Shown piece by piece: positions 14,324 through 25,647 of a stretch of DNA of 64,000 bases (positions are counted from its first letter, which is position 1; every line of letters starts with the position of its first letter). The position numbers were made by a program, and so were the translations under genes. The notes under the pieces were generated by a model. That model did not search any database. It saw only the letters and a list, made by a program, of their open reading frames with translations, and was not told where the DNA came from. The DNA comes from Candidatus Lindowbacteria bacterium RIFCSPLOWO2_12_FULL_62_27 (lineage in GTDB: Bacteria > Lindowbacteria > 2-12-FULL-62-27). The stretch spans positions 1 to 64,000 of the forward strand of contig MFPR01000014.1 of assembly GCA_001784175.1 (NCBI GenBank). The letters run 5' to 3'.

Positions 14324-15403
14324 TCAGGCTGAAACGACGACGCTGTCGGAGATTTTGTCGTGCCACGCCATCCGGCGGGCGTCCCAGAACGCCCAGAGGA
14401 AACCCAGAAACAGCGGCGCCGCGGAAAGATAATAGAGGACGCACCTCAAGAAGGCGCGTTTGAATCCGAGCGGCGTTCCGTCCGAGCCGACCACCCGGAG
14501 TTTCAGCAGTCGTTTTCCGGGCGTAGCGCCCTTTTTCCAAAGTAGGAGCGTCGAATATAGGATAAAGATCGCCTGCCAGAGAACGCCGCCCGCTTTTTTC
14601 AGTTTGCCTCTTCGGCGGTTGAGCGACTGCCTCTCTGCGTCGAGCGGATGGCCGGCCGGAATGTCGCCCGGCGCCTTGAATCCCTCAGCGGCCATCGCCC
14701 GGCGAAACTCCGTCTGGCCTTTATGGATTTTTGAGCGCGCGCCGAGCGTCAGAACAAGGACCGCCAGAAAAACCAGCACGGCGTCGAGGCCGAACGCCGC
14801 CGCCCGCCGCCATACGGACGCCGGGCGCGGCGAGAGCGCGACGCCCGAATCAAAAACGATCTCGGGCGCAGGCGCCGCCGGCGGCGATTCGCCCTCCCGC
14901 AGCACCCGGTATACTTTGATCTTGTGCGGGATTCCCTTGAGGACGCGATATCCGATCTCGGCGGACGGGACCTCGGATTTGTTCATGGCCAGGTAGGTGG
15001 CCTCGGTGAAGTATATCTCGTTGGCTTCGGCGATGCCCTCGATCCGGGCCGCGATGTTGACCGCCTCGCCGTAGATGTCGCCCTCCTCGAGGGTCACCTC
15101 GCCCGTGTTGATCGCCACCCGGATCTCGATGCGGTCCGGTTCGGCGAGCGTGGCGTTGTGGGTTCGCAGGGTTTCCTGAAGCTCCATGCCGGTGAGAACG
15201 GCGTCGGTCGGACTTTCAAAGGTCACCAAAAACGCGTCGCCGATGGTTTTGATGAGTTTCCCGCCCCGGTTCTCGATCACCGGCAGAAGCAGTTCGCGGT
15301 GCCGGCGAAGCATGTCCATCGTCGCGCTTCGGCTCTGCCCGCTCGTCCGGGGAGTGAATCCCTTCATGTCGGTAAACACGATGGTGAGGTTCTTGGTATC
15401 CAC
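14324..15403 (-). CDS. Class III adenylate cyclase fused to RDD membrane domain
   Basis: Residues 1-175 form a class III cyclase: metal Asp12 in FTDMKGFT, substrate-binding Lys52 in KTIGDAF with Asp56, Asp109, and transition-state Asn116/Arg120 in GEAVNIAAR. The residues fit ATP use, so cAMP is the likely product. After a Pro/Ala linker (about 176-192), residues about 193-359 form an RDD domain with transmembrane segments (VWRRAAAFGLDAVLVFLAVLVLTLGA, then FILYSTLLLW and YYLSAAPLFLGFLWAFW). The cyclase precedes the membrane part, the reverse of most membrane cyclases. It is convergent with rodA and divergent from rpmB. What the RDD domain senses or transports is unknown. Confidence 0.85.
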   Translation of the reverse strand: MDTKNLTIVFTDMKGFTPRTSGQSRSATMDMLRRHRELLLPVIENRGGKLIKTIGDAFLVTFESPTDAVLTGMELQETLRTHNATLAEPDRIEIRVAINTGEVTLEEGDIYGEAVNIAARIEGIAEANEIYFTEATYLAMNKSEVPSAEIGYRVLKGIPHKIKVYRVLREGESPPAAPAPEIVFDSGVALSPRPASVWRRAAAFGLDAVLVFLAVLVLTLGARSKIHKGQTEFRRAMAAEGFKAPGDIPAGHPLDAERQSLNRRRGKLKKAGGVLWQAIFILYSTLLLWKKGATPGKRLLKLRVVGSDGTPLGFKRAFLRCVLYYLSAAPLFLGFLWAFWDARRMAWHDKISDSVVVSA

Positions 15404-15499: not shown

Positions 15500-15691
15500 A
15501 TGGCCAGAGTATGCGAGATTTGCGGCAAGGCGCCGGCCAGCGGGAACAACGTGAGTCACGCGCGCAACAAGACCCGCCGGCGATGGATGCCCAACCTACA
15601 GAAAATCAAAATCACCCTGCACGGCCGGGTCTGCCGGGCCAACGTCTGCACGCGTTGCATCAAGTCCGACCGGATCCGGAAAGCCGCCTGA
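15500..15691 (+). CDS. rpmB: 50S ribosomal protein L28
   Basis: 63-residue L28 with the family pattern [26 protein letters not shown] and a C-terminal CxxxxCTRC. Cys5, Cys8, Cys50 and Cys53 can form a zinc ribbon, with Cys45 also nearby, so this is the zinc-binding (C+) form. A strong GAGGAGG precedes the ATG. Single gene, followed by GC-rich spacer and the palindrome at 15762. Confidence 0.96.
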
Positions 15692-15761: not shown

Positions 15762-15815
15762 GTGATATCATGATATCATGATAGCTATCATGATATCATG
15801 ATATCATGATATCAC
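15762..15815. repeat. 54-bp palindrome of ATGATATC units abutting a start codon
   Basis: The block is built of the self-complementary 8-mer ATGATATC and variants around a central TAGCTA; two units lie to the left and three to the right. The first 20 bases (GTGATATCATGATATCATGA) are the exact reverse complement of the last 20. It is AT-rich in GC-rich surroundings and ends one base before the TTG start of the 1714-residue gene. All ATGs within it meet a stop quickly in frame. It could be an operator array, a cruciform or a transcript hairpin between rpmB and the giant gene. Confidence 0.9.
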
Positions 15816-18800
15816 TTGGCTTCGGAGTCCTTTCCAGATGAACTGACGGGGGTTTTCCCGCCGGGGGACCCCGAGTCCCTGGAGGGGATGAGGCTCCTTA
15901 ACCGGCTCCTCCTCCGGTTTTCACGGCCCCGCGAGGTTCTCCGGGGAATTGCCAATCTCGTCCGGTCCGGCGATCCACTGGTGGCGCCGCCGGAAACGTT
16001 CCTCCACCGGCGATATGCACAGCAGTTTGAAAATTGGGATTACCCCGTGACGGTCCAGTCCCTGGTGGAGACGGAGGAAGGGCGGCTCCTGTCGTTGCCG
16101 CCCGGATCCCGGCGGTTTTCGAAGTTCCGCAGAATCATCCCGGACATTGTGAACCTCCAGCTTCAAGTCCGCTTCCCCCGCCTCCTGGCGGAACTGGCGA
16201 ACCGGCCGAACCTTTTTTTTCCGGGCGTTTTTTTTCCGCAGGAGCTGGAGATCGGAAACATGGAAATGATCTCGGCTCTCCACGGGACATTTTATGTCGT
16301 CCACGCGGAGCTCAAGGTCGGGCGGCCCGCCGGGCGCGGCCAGCCGGCGTCGGTCGTGCTGAAACCGACGGACATGGCGCTGGAGTCGATCGTCACGTTC
16401 ACCCTGCAGTTCATCAACCGCCGGCTCGATCCAGCCACCCGGAGAAGCCTCGGGCCGATTCTGGCGCCCACCATTGTTTCGATCGACGACCGCTACGGCA
16501 TCATGGATCTCATCCCCGGCAAAAACGGCGTCGAGTTCCTTCCCCAGGGCATCCAGGCCGGGTCCATTCAGGAACTTCGCCGGAACGAGTTTCCGCCGGA
16601 CCTCGATCTTTCGCGCGAAGAAGTTCTGCAAATTGCCCGTGAATTTTCCAAGCAGGCTGTGATGGCCTATTACCTCCGGCTGTACGACCGCAAGCCTGAC
16701 CAGTTGATGATTCACCGGATCGAAGACGGTCCCGCGCGGGCGGCGCTCCAATTCGCGCACATCGATTTTGGCCGGGCCCTCAAACGGAATTATGCCCTGC
16801 CCTGGAAGCGCCACTATGATCCGACCCGGCCGCCGCTGGTGTTCGACGTTCACGAAATTCCATATTTTGAGGCCGCCGCCGCATTCATCTACCTTCCTCA
16901 TTTCATTCCGGCGGATCTGAAGGACCGGTTGAGTCCGTTCGACGGCGAAATGCGGGAGGTGATCATCGAGACCTTTGTCCGGCTGGCGGGCGAAATCAAA
17001 TCGGAAGCGGACGAAATTCACTCGCTCCTCAAATACCTCATCGGCCGCCGGACCCAGTACCGGCCCGTGGAGGTTCAGGATATTTGTGTGGCGCCGGAGG
17101 ACGTGGAGGAGGTCTATACCACGCTCATCGCGCTGGACGACCCGGAGGACATCATCGAATCGATCCTGAACCTGGCCTATCACGAGCGCGAAGGCACGGC
17201 CGCGCTCCTTGCGGACGGCGACGACGAAAGCGGCGTCTATCGCCGGGCGCTGTTGTCCGGAGACCGCGTGACCCGCCTCACGGACCGATTGGACGGCGCT
17301 CACCCCTACCGGCTGCGGGACTATCGAACGCAGGGCCGGGTTTCGTACGACGTGGAACAGAAAAAACTGCGGATCCATTTTGGCGATCAACCGGAGCGCG
17401 TGATCGCGCACGTCGAGCGGCAGTATTCCGCCCGGCTGGCCCGCTTCATCCGCCAATACCCGGGCGACCCGCGCGGCGTCGAGCTTGAAATCGTCAGCGA
17501 CGGAAGCGTCACCGCGCGAAAAGTATCGCCGGACGGCCGGACGGGGCTTCGGCAGAAGCTGCGGTTTCCGCCCGACATCATGCAGGAGATCAACGAATCC
17601 GGGTCGGGATTTTCGCCCGCCGCGCACGTTCTGGCGCACGCCGCCGACTACAAGATGCGCCCGGCCGCCGACGACTACCTGCTGGATGAAATCGACAAAC
17701 ATCGGCGGATCATTGCCAACGATCTGGAAGGCCGGGAAATCCTCCAGTTCATGATGGCGACCGAGCCACCCGGCCATCCGCTCAACGCCGCCATGGCGGA
17801 GATGGTCCGGTACCTGCTGGCCAATCCGGATTACCTGGCCGACAAGGACCCCTACGAGAGCATCAATCAACTGGTCCTGTCGCTGGCGCGCAAGCATCTG
17901 CAACGGCGATGGCCCGGCGGCCGCGCGATGATCGAGGAATTTCTGCCGAAAAACTTTCTGGAGGCCATCCACCCGCTGGGACTGCCGATCCTCGGTCTCT
18001 ACGAGCATGTCGACCTGTCGCATTTCATCCATCTGATCCTCACGGTCCGGCTGGCGGACGAGCTGGGCAGGCGAGCCGCCCTGGCGCCGGCCGAACTGAA
18101 AATCCTCCGGACGGCCGCCTTCCTCCACGACCTGAACGTCATGGACGTGCATTTCCGGGAGGCGTTGATGGAGCCCAGCGGCCGCTTGAACCGGCCCATT
18201 CTCGCGCAGGTGATGGAACGGCACGCGGAGATTGCCGCGGAGATTTTTGAAAAGTCCCTGTCGGAACGGAAAATTTCCGCGCCCGACGGCATGACGGCGG
18301 AGATGCTGCTTCACATCCTGAAAAACCATCATCGCCCCTCCGGCCGGGTGGAGCAAATCCTGCACCTCGCGGACAACATCGCCGTCTTCGCCGACCGGAC
18401 GCGTCCCGATCACTGGAACCGGGGTTTTTTGCGGCTGGAGGAGATCGCACCGCGATGGATCGACGCCCAACTGGAGCGCAAGCTGATCGACCGCGAGGTT
18501 TGGTCCGCGGCCCAGGGATTTTTTTCCGATCCGAAAAACTACGCGCTCCTTCGCGAGCTGGACCGCATGTCGGCCTTTTTCCCCCAGGTGTTCGCCGCCC
18601 TCCAGATGGCCGCCGCGCTGCACTTGGGTCTCAATCCCCAGCACACCAATCCGATGGCGGACCTGCGCGAGCGCCACGGGGAGGATCTGGTCAACCGGAT
18701 CTTCGACAATCTCATGAAGTCCGGCCTGTCGGTTCGGGACAAGATCAAGGTGTTGAACCGGACCGACGCTATCGCGCCGATGTTTCGGAAGGAAACCGTG

Positions 18801-20960
18801 TCGTCCTTCGCGTTCATCAACGCCGCCATTCAGCCGGTCCAGCGCATGGTTGAACTCATTGTCCGGTTCGTAACGGAAGGCCGGACGGTCATCCTGATGG
18901 GGATTCTGCCGCGCGTGATGAAGACGTACCAGCGATTCCGGTCCCGGTACGCGGGCGACACCGCGCGGGAAGGGCGGCGGGACTGGGAGCGGGTGTGCGT
19001 GATCGCCGGCGTGCGGCGGCTCCAGTTCATCACGCATTCGTATCCCTACGAGGCTGACTTCAGGATGCCGTTTCACAAAATCATCCGGACGTTCCGCGAG
19101 TCGCGCGGCGTTCAAGAGCCCTGCTGCCTGATCCCCTTCGAGCGGTTCATGGAATCATACGCGCCGACCGCCGACGCCGAGACCCGCGTGCGGCAGCTCG
19201 AGAAGGCGTCCGATGTCGAAGAATTGCGGGGATCCGACCATATCCGCGCGGAAGCCGGGCGGTATCTCCAGTGGGAGAGCGCGCATCCGGACCGGACGTT
19301 CGACGATCGGGCCAAGGAGCGGTTTCGGAGGATCCTGCTGAGCAACTTCACCAACCGGGACGTCCTTCTGTTCTATGATGAAACCGTCCACGGCGACGTC
19401 TCGTTCACAAAGGCGCTCCGGGAGGTCATCGGCGCGCTCCACGAAAATCCCAATTACCTCAGCGACCGCTCCGTCTACTACAGCCTGCAGGAACTGGTTC
19501 GATCGTTCGGCCAGATCCATTTTTACGGAAAGGGTGCGGCCGACATTACGGCCGATCTCGGGAAATTCCTCAAGGCCGAGGGACTCGCGACGTGCGCCGG
19601 CATGGCGCGGCTCCTGGACGCGCTCAAACCCCAGTTCACCTTCGCCAAACAGAACCTCTCGGTCAGCCTCCAGATTGCAGTGGCGCTGGGCCGGCGCTGG
19701 GAAAAAACCGCCCGGACAAAACTTTCGGAGGATGACTGGCGGGCGATCACCGCCGGGATACTGCTTTCCGGCACCCTCCTCGACGACGAAACCCTCGCCG
19801 ATTACGCGCTGTCGCCCGAAGACATCTCCGCCAACCGCGCGCTCCGGCATCTTTTGTTTGACGCCCGGCCGCCCCTCTGGTCCCTCATCCGCCGCCGCAA
19901 CGACCTGCCGGGGGCATTGAAGGATTCCGACGAGGCGCGGTTGCGCCGGCTGTTTGACGACAGCCCGGTCGATCCGGCCGACGCTGTGCCGTTCCTGCTG
20001 ATCCACACCGGGCTCATTTTCGGGTCGTATTGCGATTTTTCGAAAGTTGAAAACTGGAAACGCGGAAAAATCGTCATCTCGGCGGAGGACCTCGAGTTTC
20101 TCTGGGAACTTCTGCACGGCGCATTTCAGGCCCACGGACTGAAACCGCCGGCCCGGTTCGATGAAAGCTTGCGGGCCTTTTGCAGGAAACCCGGGCCGGC
20201 CCTGCTGAACGCCCATGCCGCCAAGACCCATTCGTATGTCCGGCTCTTCAATGCGCTCAGCCTCGCGGCTGAATTGCGATACGGCCTGAAAGCGCGCGGA
20301 TTCGATCTCTTTCACCACGTGCGGACCATCTTCGGCGGCAAGGTCGCGGATCTCGTCGTGGAAGGCATCATGACGGCCGATTTCCCGCTCCGCGAAAAGG
20401 TCAAGTTTGCCCGAAAGCTCCGGCTCCTCGCAGCGGCCGTCCAGGAGGAGCGGGGACTGCCGGCGCGGCTCATGTTCATTCACACCGAACAGCCGCTGGG
20501 CGCGCCGCCTGTCCGGGATATCCGGCGGGCCCTCCGGATCGGGCCGGCCGCCGGCCGCGCGCCGGCGCTGATGGTGCCGTCGGGGGATTTTGATCGGACG
20601 GAGCGGATGTTCTCATACCTGTGCGCCCGGTTCGACCCGCAGGAATTCCGGGATTTCCGCCGACAGGCCAAATTCCTGGTCGGGGAGGATTATCCGCTGC
20701 TCATCAAGGAAAAAAGTCTACAGAAAACGGATTGGTTCCGGGACCGGATCGCCGCGTTTCGAAAAAGCCGCAACCTCTCCAGCCGCCACCTCTTCGTACC
20801 CGTCAGCGAGCTTACGGATCCCGGCCCGTCCACGGCCGGCGTCAGAGACGCCGGCACTTGGGGCGCCGGAGGCGCTGACCCGGGCGGCGGCATTCCGGCC
20901 GCGCGGGGAGGCGACAAGGGCCTCTTTTTCTTCAGGACGTGGATGCAGTTGTTTGATTAA
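15816..20960 (+). CDS. 1714-residue protein: PI3/4-kinase-like region, degenerate HD-GYP, internal duplication
   Basis: I recognise no named family for the whole protein. Residues about 150-330 resemble a PI3/4-kinase-type fold: candidate ATP Lys183 in VVLKPTD, hinge YGIMDLIPGKNGVEFLP (227-243), catalytic-loop-like DRKPDQLMI (291-299, Gln296 where kinases have Asn) and HIDFG (315-319). Residues about 760-870 resemble HD-GYP: HD at 771-772, His803, HHRPSG at 838-843 in place of HHExxDGxGYP, and Asp853. Residues about 627-1112 are followed by a divergent second copy at about 1167-1668 that has lost the HD residues (SGTLLDDE). No signal peptide or clear membrane helix is seen, so probably cytosolic. 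The start is TTG 15816 just after an in-frame stop; ATG 15885 (residue 24), preceded by GGAGGGG, is an alternative. A glycosyltransferase follows after 26 bases. Confidence 0.85.
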   Translation: MASESFPDELTGVFPPGDPESLEGMRLLNRLLLRFSRPREVLRGIANLVRSGDPLVAPPETFLHRRYAQQFENWDYPVTVQSLVETEEGRLLSLPPGSRRFSKFRRIIPDIVNLQLQVRFPRLLAELANRPNLFFPGVFFPQELEIGNMEMISALHGTFYVVHAELKVGRPAGRGQPASVVLKPTDMALESIVTFTLQFINRRLDPATRRSLGPILAPTIVSIDDRYGIMDLIPGKNGVEFLPQGIQAGSIQELRRNEFPPDLDLSREEVLQIAREFSKQAVMAYYLRLYDRKPDQLMIHRIEDGPARAALQFAHIDFGRALKRNYALPWKRHYDPTRPPLVFDVHEIPYFEAAAAFIYLPHFIPADLKDRLSPFDGEMREVIIETFVRLAGEIKSEADEIHSLLKYLIGRRTQYRPVEVQDICVAPEDVEEVYTTLIALDDPEDIIESILNLAYHEREGTAALLADGDDESGVYRRALLSGDRVTRLTDRLDGAHPYRLRDYRTQGRVSYDVEQKKLRIHFGDQPERVIAHVERQYSARLARFIRQYPGDPRGVELEIVSDGSVTARKVSPDGRTGLRQKLRFPPDIMQEINESGSGFSPAAHVLAHAADYKMRPAADDYLLDEIDKHRRIIANDLEGREILQFMMATEPPGHPLNAAMAEMVRYLLANPDYLADKDPYESINQLVLSLARKHLQRRWPGGRAMIEEFLPKNFLEAIHPLGLPILGLYEHVDLSHFIHLILTVRLADELGRRAALAPAELKILRTAAFLHDLNVMDVHFREALMEPSGRLNRPILAQVMERHAEIAAEIFEKSLSERKISAPDGMTAEMLLHILKNHHRPSGRVEQILHLADNIAVFADRTRPDHWNRGFLRLEEIAPRWIDAQLERKLIDREVWSAAQGFFSDPKNYALLRELDRMSAFFPQVFAALQMAAALHLGLNPQHTNPMADLRERHGEDLVNRIFDNLMKSGLSVRDKIKVLNRTDAIAPMFRKETVSSFAFINAAIQPVQRMVELIVRFVTEGRTVILMGILPRVMKTYQRFRSRYAGDTAREGRRDWERVCVIAGVRRLQFITHSYPYEADFRMPFHKIIRTFRESRGVQEPCCLIPFERFMESYAPTADAETRVRQLEKASDVEELRGSDHIRAEAGRYLQWESAHPDRTFDDRAKERFRRILLSNFTNRDVLLFYDETVHGDVSFTKALREVIGALHENPNYLSDRSVYYSLQELVRSFGQIHFYGKGAADITADLGKFLKAEGLATCAGMARLLDALKPQFTFAKQNLSVSLQIAVALGRRWEKTARTKLSEDDWRAITAGILLSGTLLDDETLADYALSPEDISANRALRHLLFDARPPLWSLIRRRNDLPGALKDSDEARLRRLFDDSPVDPADAVPFLLIHTGLIFGSYCDFSKVENWKRGKIVISAEDLEFLWELLHGAFQAHGLKPPARFDESLRAFCRKPGPALLNAHAAKTHSYVRLFNALSLAAELRYGLKARGFDLFHHVRTIFGGKVADLVVEGIMTADFPLREKVKFARKLRLLAAAVQEERGLPARLMFIHTEQPLGAPPVRDIRRALRIGPAAGRAPALMVPSGDFDRTERMFSYLCARFDPQEFRDFRRQAKFLVGEDYPLLIKEKSLQKTDWFRDRIAAFRKSRNLSSRHLFVPVSELTDPGPSTAGVRDAGTWGAGGADPGGGIPAARGGDKGLFFFRTWMQLFD

Positions 20961-22637: not shown

Positions 22638-24257
22638 CTACTCCCACTCATGGCGGCCGGCCGGCAGCATTTTTTGCGCGTTTTCCGCATGGCCTCGCCC
22701 GTAGCCGGCGTGCGCCTCGGCGTGGTAGGAGGACCGGACCAGCGGCCCGGATTCAACATGTTTGAATCCCAGTTTCAGTCCGACCCGTTTCCAGTGTTCA
22801 AACTCGGACGGGTGGACCCAGCGATCGACGGGGAGATGCCGGCCGGAGGGCCGGAGGTACTGGCCGAGCGTCAGGATGTCGACCTGCCGCGCGGCGATGT
22901 CGCGGAGCGCGCGGAGGATTTCGAAGGGCTGTTCGCCGATGCCCAGCATAAGGCCGGTTTTGGTCCGAAACCCCGCGTCTTTGGCGCGAGACAATAGTTC
23001 GAGCGACCGCTCGTACCGCGCCTGGGGCCGAACGGTGGGATAGAGGCGCGGGACAGTTTCGAGATTGTGGTTCAGGACGTCCGGTCCCGCATCGAGAACC
23101 GTTTTGAGCGAGGCGCCGTCGCCCAGGAAGTCCGGGATCAGGACCTCGATCTGCGTCTCCGGATTTTTCCTGCGCACCCGCCGGATCGTCCTCGCCCAAA
23201 TTTCCGCGCCCCCGTCCGGCGCGTCGTCCCGGTTCACCGACGTGATGACCACATGCCGAAGCCCCATCTCCTGCACGGCCGCCGCCACCCGCGCCGGCTC
23301 AAACTCGTCCAGCCCGGCCGGCCGGCCCGGCGTCACGGCGCAGAACCCACAGGCGCGCGTGCAAACGTCCCCGAGGATCATGAACGTCGCCGTGCCCCGG
23401 CCCCAGCATTCGCCGAGGTTCGGGCAGTGTGCGCTCTCGCAGACGGTGTGCAACTTTTTGGTGTCCATGATGTCGCGGAGCTTCACGTACACCGGACCGC
23501 CGGGGATCGGCCGGCGAAGCCAGTAGGGTTTCGGGCCGACACGATCCGGCAGGCCGCGCCGCGGCAGCGCGCTCATTTCGACCGGAACCCCGTCCGGAAA
23601 CGCCGTCTGCCACACCGCGTCCGCATCGACGGATTCGGAAGGCCCGCCGGCGGACTGAAACGCCCGGACGAACTCGTTCGCGACACGCTCTAGGCTCGGC
23701 GCGCGGCCCAGTTCCTGTTCCATGTGGGTGATCGCATCCCCCGCGCAGGCGCACGGCACGATGTGGGAAAAAGGCTTGAGATCGGGATCTACATTGAGCG
23801 AAACTCCATGGTACGAAACCGACCGGGAGATTTTAATGCCAACGAATCCGATCTTCCGCCCGCCCACCCGGACCCCGACCGACTCCGACGGCGCCGCATC
23901 CAAACCAAACGCTCGCAGGGTGTCGATCATGCACTGTTCGAGAAACCGGACCCATCGAAGCACGTAGGGGCCCGACAGTTTGAAGATCGGATACGCCACG
24001 AGCTGGCCGGGGCCGTGATACGTGACGTTCCCGCCGCGGCGCGTTTCCACAACGTCGATCCCGAGCCGCGAGAGCGTATCGCGCGGCGTCAGGACGTGCG
24101 AGCCGGGCGCGGCGGCGCCCAGCGTGATCGTGGGCGGATGTTCGAGGATGAGGAGCGTGTCGGGAATCCGGTCCTGCGCGCGCATCTCGACGAGCCGTTC
24201 CTGTAGCGCCAAGGCCGAGCGGTACGGCACGAGGCCGAGGCGCGCGTGCTCAAACAT
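22638..24257 (-). CDS. Fused octanoyltransferase LipB - lipoyl synthase LipA
   Basis: One 539-residue frame carries both enzymes of de novo lipoylation. Residues 1-217 are LipB (octanoyl-ACP to apoprotein transfer): RGGNVTYHGPGQLVAYP at about 74-90, Lys135 and Cys169 (PCACAG), matching the catalytic Lys/Cys pair. After a short linker, residues about 225-539 are LipA, a radical SAM enzyme inserting two sulfurs. The auxiliary cluster Cys273/278/284 (CESAHCPNLGEC), SAM cluster Cys299/303/306 (CTRACGFC) and the C-terminal RSSY motif are present. There is no stop between the two halves. The ATG at 24257 overlaps the lpdA stop by 8 bases; upstream residues in this frame are lpdA sequence out of phase. 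Products would modify the E2 lipoyl domain encoded in the same cluster. Confidence 0.93.
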   Translation of the reverse strand: MFEHARLGLVPYRSALALQERLVEMRAQDRIPDTLLILEHPPTITLGAAAPGSHVLTPRDTLSRLGIDVVETRRGGNVTYHGPGQLVAYPIFKLSGPYVLRWVRFLEQCMIDTLRAFGLDAAPSESVGVRVGGRKIGFVGIKISRSVSYHGVSLNVDPDLKPFSHIVPCACAGDAITHMEQELGRAPSLERVANEFVRAFQSAGGPSESVDADAVWQTAFPDGVPVEMSALPRRGLPDRVGPKPYWLRRPIPGGPVYVKLRDIMDTKKLHTVCESAHCPNLGECWGRGTATFMILGDVCTRACGFCAVTPGRPAGLDEFEPARVAAAVQEMGLRHVVITSVNRDDAPDGGAEIWARTIRRVRRKNPETQIEVLIPDFLGDGASLKTVLDAGPDVLNHNLETVPRLYPTVRPQARYERSLELLSRAKDAGFRTKTGLMLGIGEQPFEILRALRDIAARQVDILTLGQYLRPSGRHLPVDRWVHPSEFEHWKRVGLKLGFKHVESGPLVRSSYHAEAHAGYGRGHAENAQKMLPAGRHEWE

Positions 24258-25647
24258 GGATGGCCCGGTTGTCGGACGCGAGCGCGGCCTCCAGTACCGC
24301 TTCGGCCATGGTCGGGTGCGCGTGGATGGTGGAGACGATCTCGTCCCTCGTGGATTCGAGGGCGAGGGCGATGCCAAGTTCGGCGATGATCTCCGTCGCT
24401 TCGTGGCCCAGAATGTGCGCGCCGACCAGTTGGGCATGAGGACCGGCGAAAATGAGTTTGACGAACCCCTCGGTTTCGTCCGCCGCGATCGCCTTGCCGA
24501 GTGCCTGGAACGGGAACCGGCCGACCTGAATGTCGTCGCCGAATTTTTTCCGTGCGGCCGGTTCCGTCAGGCCGATGCTCGCAACCTGCGGCCGGCAGTA
24601 CGTACACGCGGGGATGGCATCGTAGTTGATGACCGGCGTGTGGTCCGTGAACATTCGCTCGACCGCGACGATGCCCTCATGGGACGCGACGTGCGCCAGC
24701 CACGGCGGCCCGATGATGTCGCCGATCGCGAAGATTCCGGGCAGAGAGGTCCGGTAGTTGTCGTCGACTGCGATCCAGCCATTCTCATCCTTCAGTTTCA
24801 AGCCCTCGGCCAGAAGGCCTTCCACGTTCGGCGCGACGCCCAGCGCCACCAAGGCGGCGGAAGCGTCCACCGACGAGGGCCCCAGATCGATCCGGACGCC
24901 CGGGCCGTCGGTCGAGATCGCGTTCACCCGCGCGCCGGTCAGGATCATCATGCCGCGTCTCTCGTAAATCTTCCTCAGCCGGTCTGAAATCTCCGGATCC
25001 TCCTGCGGCAGGATGCGGTCGAGCATTTCGATGACCGTAACCTTGCTCCCGAGCGTATGGAAAAAATACGCGAACTCCATGCCGATCGCGCCCGCGCCCA
25101 GGACCGCCAGATGCGCGGGCGGCGTATCGACCAGGAGCGCCTCCTTGCTCGTCAGGATCCGCCGCCCGTCCGCACGGACGCCCGGCAGAAGCCGTGGCTT
25201 GGCGCCGACCGCGATCAGGATTTTTTCCGCCTCCAGATCCTCGCCGGCCGCACGGCCGTCGCCCGCGGGCAGGACCTGTATTTTTCCCGGCATGACGATC
25301 CGGGCCCGGCCGATCCTGTAGTCGATTTTGTTCTTCTTGAACAGAAACTCGATCCCCTTGTTCAGCCGCCCGACGACGTCGCGGCTCCGGGCGACAATCT
25401 TTTTCAGATCAAAGCCGGCGCCGGTCACGGAAAACCCGTACCGGTCCGCCGATCGCAAAAATTCGTACTGCTCGGCCGTCTTGAGCAACGCCTTCGACGG
25501 GATACATCCCCAGTTCAGGCACGTGCCGCCCGGCCGGCCCTCCTCGTCGATGACAACGACCCGCCGGCCCAACTGCGCCGCGCGGATGGCCGCCACATAC
25601 CCGCCGGGCCCGGCGCCGATCACGGCGAGATCGTACGATTCAGTCAT
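24250..25647 (-). CDS. lpdA: Dihydrolipoamide dehydrogenase (E3)
   Basis: FAD flavoprotein disulfide reductase that reoxidises dihydrolipoamide of E2 with NAD+. N-terminal FAD site IGAGPGGYVAA (10-20), redox disulfide Cys43/Cys48 in GGTCLNWGCIPSK, NAD-binding GAGAIGMEFA, the second FAD motif FAIGDIIG, and the C-terminal catalytic HAHPTMAE (His444, Glu449). At 465 residues it is a normal E3. It lies 21 bases after the HDOD gene and overlaps lipB-lipA by 8 bases. Confidence 0.97.
   Translation of the reverse strand: MTESYDLAVIGAGPGGYVAAIRAAQLGRRVVVIDEEGRPGGTCLNWGCIPSKALLKTAEQYEFLRSADRYGFSVTGAGFDLKKIVARSRDVVGRLNKGIEFLFKKNKIDYRIGRARIVMPGKIQVLPAGDGRAAGEDLEAEKILIAVGAKPRLLPGVRADGRRILTSKEALLVDTPPAHLAVLGAGAIGMEFAYFFHTLGSKVTVIEMLDRILPQEDPEISDRLRKIYERRGMMILTGARVNAISTDGPGVRIDLGPSSVDASAALVALGVAPNVEGLLAEGLKLKDENGWIAVDDNYRTSLPGIFAIGDIIGPPWLAHVASHEGIVAVERMFTDHTPVINYDAIPACTYCRPQVASIGLTEPAARKKFGDDIQVGRFPFQALGKAIAADETEGFVKLIFAGPHAQLVGAHILGHEATEIIAELGIALALESTRDEIVSTIHAHPTMAEAVLEAALASDNRAIHV

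Follow-up and report, generated by a model that had tools for sequence, protein, structure and literature searches.

A Lindowbacteria protein that joins a PI3K/PI4K-like region to a duplicated HD unit with one degenerate copy

What kind of protein is encoded by a 1714-residue reading frame that bears kinase-like motifs in its N-terminal half and HD-type motifs in its C-terminal half? The frame lies in a 64,000-nucleotide stretch of DNA, here called the window, from Candidatus Lindowbacteria bacterium RIFCSPLOWO2_12_FULL_62_27 (contig MFPR01000014.1). A preliminary description of the window had located the frame and its motifs, and these positions were exact (VVLKPTD at residues 180-186, DRKPDQ at 291-296, HIDFG at 315-319, HD at 771-772, and HHRPSG at 838-843). 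The frame and its immediate surroundings are as follows.

15500..15691, + strand: rpmB (ribosomal protein L28; PF00830), directly upstream of the frame in all three genomes that carry it
15763..15814, no strand: palindromic TGATATCA array between rpmB and the frame
15816..20960, + strand: whole-protein ORF, 1714 aa, 195 kDa; orthologs L014 and L015+L016
20987..22015, + strand: GT2 glycosyltransferase, co-oriented, 27 nt downstream (PF00535, E 3.9e-24)

Orthologs with 57-68% identity were found in two other Lindowbacteria-type genomes, which represent other genera, and they keep both the frame and the catalytic motifs. The window genome (G000) was placed in the same group as these relatives from the shared family label. 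The ortholog in G002 (L014) is full length, whereas that in G001 is split into two contig-end pieces, L016 (up to about residue 538) and L015 (from about residue 493), each of which was aligned on its own, unjoined. Differences between the window and the orthologs amounted to 0.24-0.31, 0.17-0.24, and 0.52-0.55 at codon positions 1, 2, and 3, respectively. Because the frame is conserved and the differences concentrate at the third codon position, we consider the ORF a genuine gene, and a reading-frame artefact is ruled out. Hydropathy analysis found no transmembrane segment in the protein. The exact N-terminus is unsure, because the TTG start at 15816 borders a palindromic repeat of dispersed type and ATG, GTG, and TTG are all missing from the equivalent position in L014. 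The C-terminus is real, as the last residues, DKGLFFFRTW, are conserved after a variable linker (DKGLFxFRTW across the orthologs).

The array in front of the gene follows the consensus CAAAG-(TGATATCA)n-TGATA-NN-TATCA-(TGATATCA)n-CTTTG, with perfect 22-nt arms and an RNA fold of -40.6 kcal/mol (z -8.1). G000 has 14 copies of its exact core (centre GC among those listed) and G001 has 16 (centre TA among those listed); none was found in G002 or in 383 further genomes. G000 and G001 share the copy that precedes the 1714-aa gene. The array resembles a dispersed element of regulatory or REP type.

Cotranscription with a glycosyltransferase had been suggested. Co-orientation and the GT2 ortholog adjoining the G001 ortholog (68% identity) speak for this link, but it is not universal: no GT2 ortholog was found in G002 (81% complete), where a TPR gene on the opposite strand takes its place, so that the pair stands in two of the three genomes and the constant neighbour is rpmB instead. 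Cotranscription is plausible. Upstream on the opposite strand, the window encodes an RDD/cyclase protein, a protein that has no hit in Pfam, TilS, Hpt, and FtsH. The first of these (14324-15403, - strand) combines an adenylate/guanylate cyclase domain with an RDD membrane domain (PF00211, PF06271). At 22638-24437 (- strand), a lipoyl(octanoyl) transferase is fused to a lipoyl synthase (PF21948 and radical SAM; TIGR00214 and TIGR00510 above cut-off), adjoined by a dihydrolipoyl dehydrogenase. Near the G001 ortholog, L015:4737-6008 (- strand) encodes a response regulator receiver together with a metallo-beta-lactamase-fold domain.

The kinase-like half comprises the following elements.

16236..16535, + strand: putative kinase N-lobe (residues 141-240), containing VVLKPTD, whose K183 precedes a helix, and the YGIMDLIPG segment; 76-81% identity to orthologs, strand/helix order seen in a low-confidence model
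16536..17195, + strand: PI3K/PI4K-like C-lobe, residues 241-460; PF00454 match at 272-326 and rows 1-20 of the VIA-align ranking
16686..16703, + strand: catalytic-loop motif DRKPDQ (D291; Q296 replaces Asn), invariant in the orthologs covering that stretch
16758..16772, + strand: HIDFG (D317, DFG-type Asp), invariant in the orthologs covering that stretch

The PF00454 (PI3_PI4_kinase) profile matched residues 272-326 with E 4.2e-5 (24.0 bits) when the full-length protein was searched and with E 1.3e-5 (25.7 bits) for residues 1-600, against a curated cut-off of 27.1 bits. All three N-terminal members match, the orthologs at 1e-5 to 2e-6 (best 2.3e-6), and a search of the three Lindowbacteria-type genomes gave 26.7-28.7 bits, right at the cut-off, with each of the three flagged as exceeding it. 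The match spans 48 of the 241 profile positions, namely the catalytic loop and the DFG motif only. Within it, the DRH-type Asp (D291) and the DFG Asp (D317) are invariant, and the metal-binding Asn of DRHxxN is absent, with Gln at position 296 in the window protein and in both orthologs covering it. Identity to the orthologs is 84-89% over residues 272-330 and 73-81% in the flanking lobes. The strand that bears K183 (VVLKPTDMALESIVTFTLQFIN) and the hinge-like segment YGIMDLIPG resemble the corresponding PI3K elements. No Pfam family of kinases other than PF00454 matched the region at E up to 5, a search that distant families could escape.

An AF2 model of the kinase part, built from a four-row alignment, had a mean pLDDT of 43.8, with about 26-57 in the C-lobe region. 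The leading Foldseek hits included protein kinases and PI4KIIIbeta, at E 0.1-1; Foldseek by itself returned nothing at E<=0.001 for either this model or that of the HD half. When 1000 Foldseek candidates were re-aligned with VIA-align, the best 20 rows were all of PI4KIIIbeta/Vps34/PI3K/mTOR type, with Z 5.4-7.0 over 146-228 residues (the model covers protein residues 242-462); we take this ranking as suggestive, since Z values of 5-7 can mean a mere common arrangement. Claims on the fold beyond the sequence matches are likewise tentative because both AF2 models have a mean pLDDT below 50. The PF00454 match, together with the structural ranking from the low-confidence model, supports a PI3K/PI4K-like region. 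PF00454 also includes protein kinases, for example mTOR.

Such folds had been called rare in bacteria; they turned out to be uncommon rather than very rare, as PF00454-like domains (E<=1e-3) occur in 14 of 241 sampled genomes, including 11 outside the Lindowbacteria family. Apart from the three genomes and one giant protein, the matching frames do not exceed 493 aa. Six of them (L049, L050, L051, L053, L055, and L062) are single-domain proteins of about 240-285 aa, presumably TIGR03843-like, and a profile comparison of the kinase region with this group gave only a spurious 24-column alignment. These six proteins carry His where the Lindowbacteria protein has Gln. Hence, the Asn-to-Gln change, which had been suggested as a possible cause of inactivity, is by itself no proof of it, and a residue other than Asn is, going by these alignments, not peculiar to the Lindowbacteria protein. 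Whether the domain acts as a kinase is nonetheless uncertain with Gln as the motif residue.

The giant protein is a 4836-aa frame from another phylum (L063/L064, G229:C19:173641-188148, minus strand) with PF00454 at E 2.2e-20. It carries PI3K-like repeats of about 305 aa, 11 in tandem, 8 of which keep DRxxxN, and Pfam found no further domain in it when searched as two overlapping pieces. A profile of the 11 repeats aligned with the kinase region over 176 columns, catalytic loops in register, at E 0.0029, and BLASTP between the Lindowbacteria protein and the giant gave no significant match.

The remainder of the protein is organized as a tandem unit, preceded by a small linker domain and followed by a variable linker.

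17322..17585, + strand: small alpha/beta linker domain, residues 503-590, weakly KTSC/DUF2283-like (PF13619 and PF10049; pLDDT mostly 64-77)
17625..19184, + strand: repeat copy 1, residues 604-1123 (BLASTP, profile comparison)
18003..18425, + strand: catalytic-type HD domain, residues 730-870, with ligand-type H739, H771, D772, H803, H838, H839, and D853 (PF01966, E 7.2e-7)
18783..19190, + strand: copy-1 C-terminal alpha/beta domain, residues 990-1125 (secondary structure; pLDDT about 47-72)
19236..20858, + strand: repeat copy 2, residues 1141-1681 (BLASTP, profile comparison, copy-1 profile)
19551..20222, + strand: predicted pseudo-HD domain at residues about 1246-1469 (none of the ligand-type residues kept; model matches HD folds)
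20463..20819, + strand: copy-2 C-terminal alpha/beta domain, residues about 1550-1668 (model and alignment)
20820..20900, + strand: variable linker, residues 1669-1695, a dispersed GC-rich repeat (25 further matches in its own genome)

BLASTP aligned copy 1 with copy 2 at E 2.5e-9 in the window protein, 8.7e-14 in L014, and 3.6e-15 in L015. The profile-profile comparison with hhalign gave E 2.9e-16, with 0.018 as the best of 40 column-shuffled controls, which rules out a chance duplication. Moreover, searching with a profile of HD copy 1 recovered copy 2 from all three genomes (E 4.2e-7, 1.4e-9, and 1.4e-11). As far as their sequences tell, the two stretches are an old duplication, slightly longer than the bounds proposed before (about 627-1112 and about 1167-1668).

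The HD domain of copy 1 matched PF01966 over residues 737-855 with 29.9 bits (cut-off 22), in two of three alignment members, and its seven ligand-type residues are invariant in the three copy-1 sequences; their assignment to metal binding is by analogy throughout. The HD-GYP enzyme PmGH has E185, H189, H221, D222, H250, H276, H277, and D305 as ligands, and the family motif is HHExxDGxGYP (PMC4159591). The H739-H771 spacing of 32 equals that of H189-H221 in PmGH (PMC4159591), whereas the remaining spacings are 31, 35, and 14 (H839-D853) as opposed to 28, 26, and 28. There is no clear counterpart of E185 in copy 1, and the GYP loop is missing, with HHRPSGRVEQI in its place (HHRSTGGA and HHRQSTGP in the orthologs); copy 1 is thus probably a general-type HD hydrolase, not an HD-GYP protein. 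Weak matches to the NCBIfam model Cas10/Csm1 (E 0.0012, far under cut-off) and, in one member, to Cas3_HD (E 0.04) point the same way. Of the HD-GYP-like core described before, the HD domain stands and the HD-GYP assignment does not, as the general HD model is the one matched.

Copy 2 is present, as the preliminary description had it, but is best called a pseudo-HD, because every metal-ligand-type residue is gone: the seven positions read N, S/A/C, G, A/M/Q, S/G/T, P, and L, and the loss extends to all orthologs. In the AF2 model of the HD half (mean pLDDT 47.9), the copy-2 stretch (model residues 657-880) has block averages from 32 up to 86. It aligned with the HD-GYP protein DvhD at Z 9.0 and also with many PDE, SidE-type PDE, OxsA, and exopolyphosphatase chains. 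Judged from this model, copy 2 appears to have kept the HD fold while losing the metal site. PmGH forms a homodimer (PMC4159591), and, by analogy, the fused second HD could replace the second subunit of such an HD homodimer.

Both copies end in an alpha/beta domain with the same modelled E-H-E-H-H-E-H-E-H order (model residues 409-526 and 962-1078), for which matches beyond the three genomes were confined to E>=0.0019. The linker domain at 503-590 matched PF13619 and PF10049 in one of four members, at a marginal E of 0.014. The GC-rich segment at 20820-20900 is apparently a dispersed repeat inside the coding sequence.

A profile of the kinase region matched 3 of 386 genomes, all Lindowbacteria-type, and none of the 44 genomes of the G229 phylum. 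Outside these three, the HD copy-1 profile hit 10 genomes, and only weakly, through generic similarity of HD type (E 4e-6 to 7e-4). The contig scan for orthologs used exact short peptide patterns and finds close relatives only. No relatives of the 1714-aa protein were found in plasmids, viral contigs, or PADLOC; no PDB sequence matched at an E below 0.07, and PHROGs gave weak matches only (best E 0.053). So far, the protein is restricted to Lindowbacteria, in a thin sample where the family amounts to three genomes. A fusion of PI3K-like and HD domains, with or without a pseudo-HD, was not seen elsewhere among the sampled genomes, nor was one described in the open-access literature covered by our word searches, which agrees with the earlier remark that it has no precedent. 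The novelty is in the domain architecture; the superfamilies themselves are known, PF00454 from the 14 genomes above and HD as a common domain.

How might such a protein work? The reading we prefer, and which we hold in even balance, is a large soluble multidomain switch, in which a PI3K-like ATP-binding module regulates an HD hydrolase that has a pseudo-HD partner. The N-terminal half (residues about 141-460) would adopt a PI3K/PI4K-like fold and probably bind ATP-Mg via K183, D291, and D317. The C-terminal half would be a duplicated unit of helical region, HD domain, and alpha/beta domain. The copy-1 HD would be a metal-dependent phosphohydrolase or phosphodiesterase, and the copy-2 HD, its metal site lost, a structural or regulatory partner, so that one chain may mimic an HD homodimer, with two HD domains but one active site. 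Most likely, the PI3K-like module would then control the HD hydrolase by binding a nucleotide or transferring a phosphoryl group; the substrate of the hydrolase is probably a nucleotide, a phosphorylated messenger, or a protein.

We rank this switch above a full kinase/phosphatase pair, which we think rather doubtful: an active bifunctional enzyme that, like the kinase/phosphatase AceK, would work in both directions, its PI3K-like domain phosphorylating a small molecule or a protein and its HD domain taking that phosphate off again. The invariance of K183, D291, D317, and all HD ligand-type residues fits this proposal, as does the departure from Asn in other bacterial PF00454-matching proteins; against it are Gln at the metal-binding position itself and the lack of a neighbouring gene that would be an obvious substrate. 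Its bolder form, a single-chain writer-eraser in which an active PI3K-type phosphotransferase and the HD phosphohydrolase act on the same phospho-substrate with the pseudo-HD as internal regulator, in a signalling system confined to Lindowbacteria, is unlikely.

A c-di-GMP phosphodiesterase of HD-GYP-like function under pseudokinase control seems improbable. The ligand pattern is near that of PmGH (PMC4159591) and GGDEF matches exist in all three genomes (12 in G000, 12 in G001, and 6 in G002), whose presence in itself neither favours nor disfavours a cyclic-dinucleotide substrate, yet the GYP loop HHExxDGxGYP is missing, H839 and D853 are 14 rather than 28 residues apart, and the general HD model alone matches. 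Most improbable among these proposals is a lipid kinase of phosphoinositide type with an HD phosphohydrolase attached. PF00454 is the sole kinase family matched, and PI4KIIIbeta and Vps34 head the structural ranking; the same family covers protein kinases, though, and the protein lacks a membrane segment. Furthermore, a phosphoinositide substrate is disfavoured because inositol-1-phosphate synthase was not detected in any of the three Lindowbacteria-type genomes by a search that was positive in 6 of 14 controls.

The protein may be a previously undescribed signalling enzyme. PI3K/PI4K-type effectors are known from the intracellular pathogens Legionella and Rickettsia (PMC9758233, PMC7298712); if active, the Lindowbacteria protein would, unlike those effectors, be a PI3K-type enzyme of an uncultured groundwater-type bacterium. 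The duplicated HD unit offers a clear case in which one copy retains and the other loses the full metal site within one protein, and thereby a way to test what a pseudo-hydrolase does.

Compared with the PF00454 kinases (PI4KIIIbeta, Vps34, mTOR), the protein shares a catalytic-loop D-R followed by HIDFG and a helix that comes after a strand with Lys, and its C-lobe may align over about 150 residues in the low-confidence model. It differs in having Gln for Asn, in being bacterial and HD-fused, and in matching only about 50 profile positions. With the small bacterial PF00454 group it shares DRK at the catalytic loop and a residue other than Asn there, His in theirs and Gln here, whereas those are small single-domain proteins and the profile comparison left the catalytic motifs unaligned. 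With the HD superfamily (PF01966; PmGH/DvhD, OxsA, the Cas10 HD) it has in common the copy-1 pattern H...HD...H...HH...D, and almost every chain in the structural ranking of copy 2 belongs to that superfamily. Unlike its members, however, it is without the GYP loop, is arranged in tandem with one degenerate copy, and carries in addition a PI3K-like domain as well as alpha/beta domains that have no known relatives.
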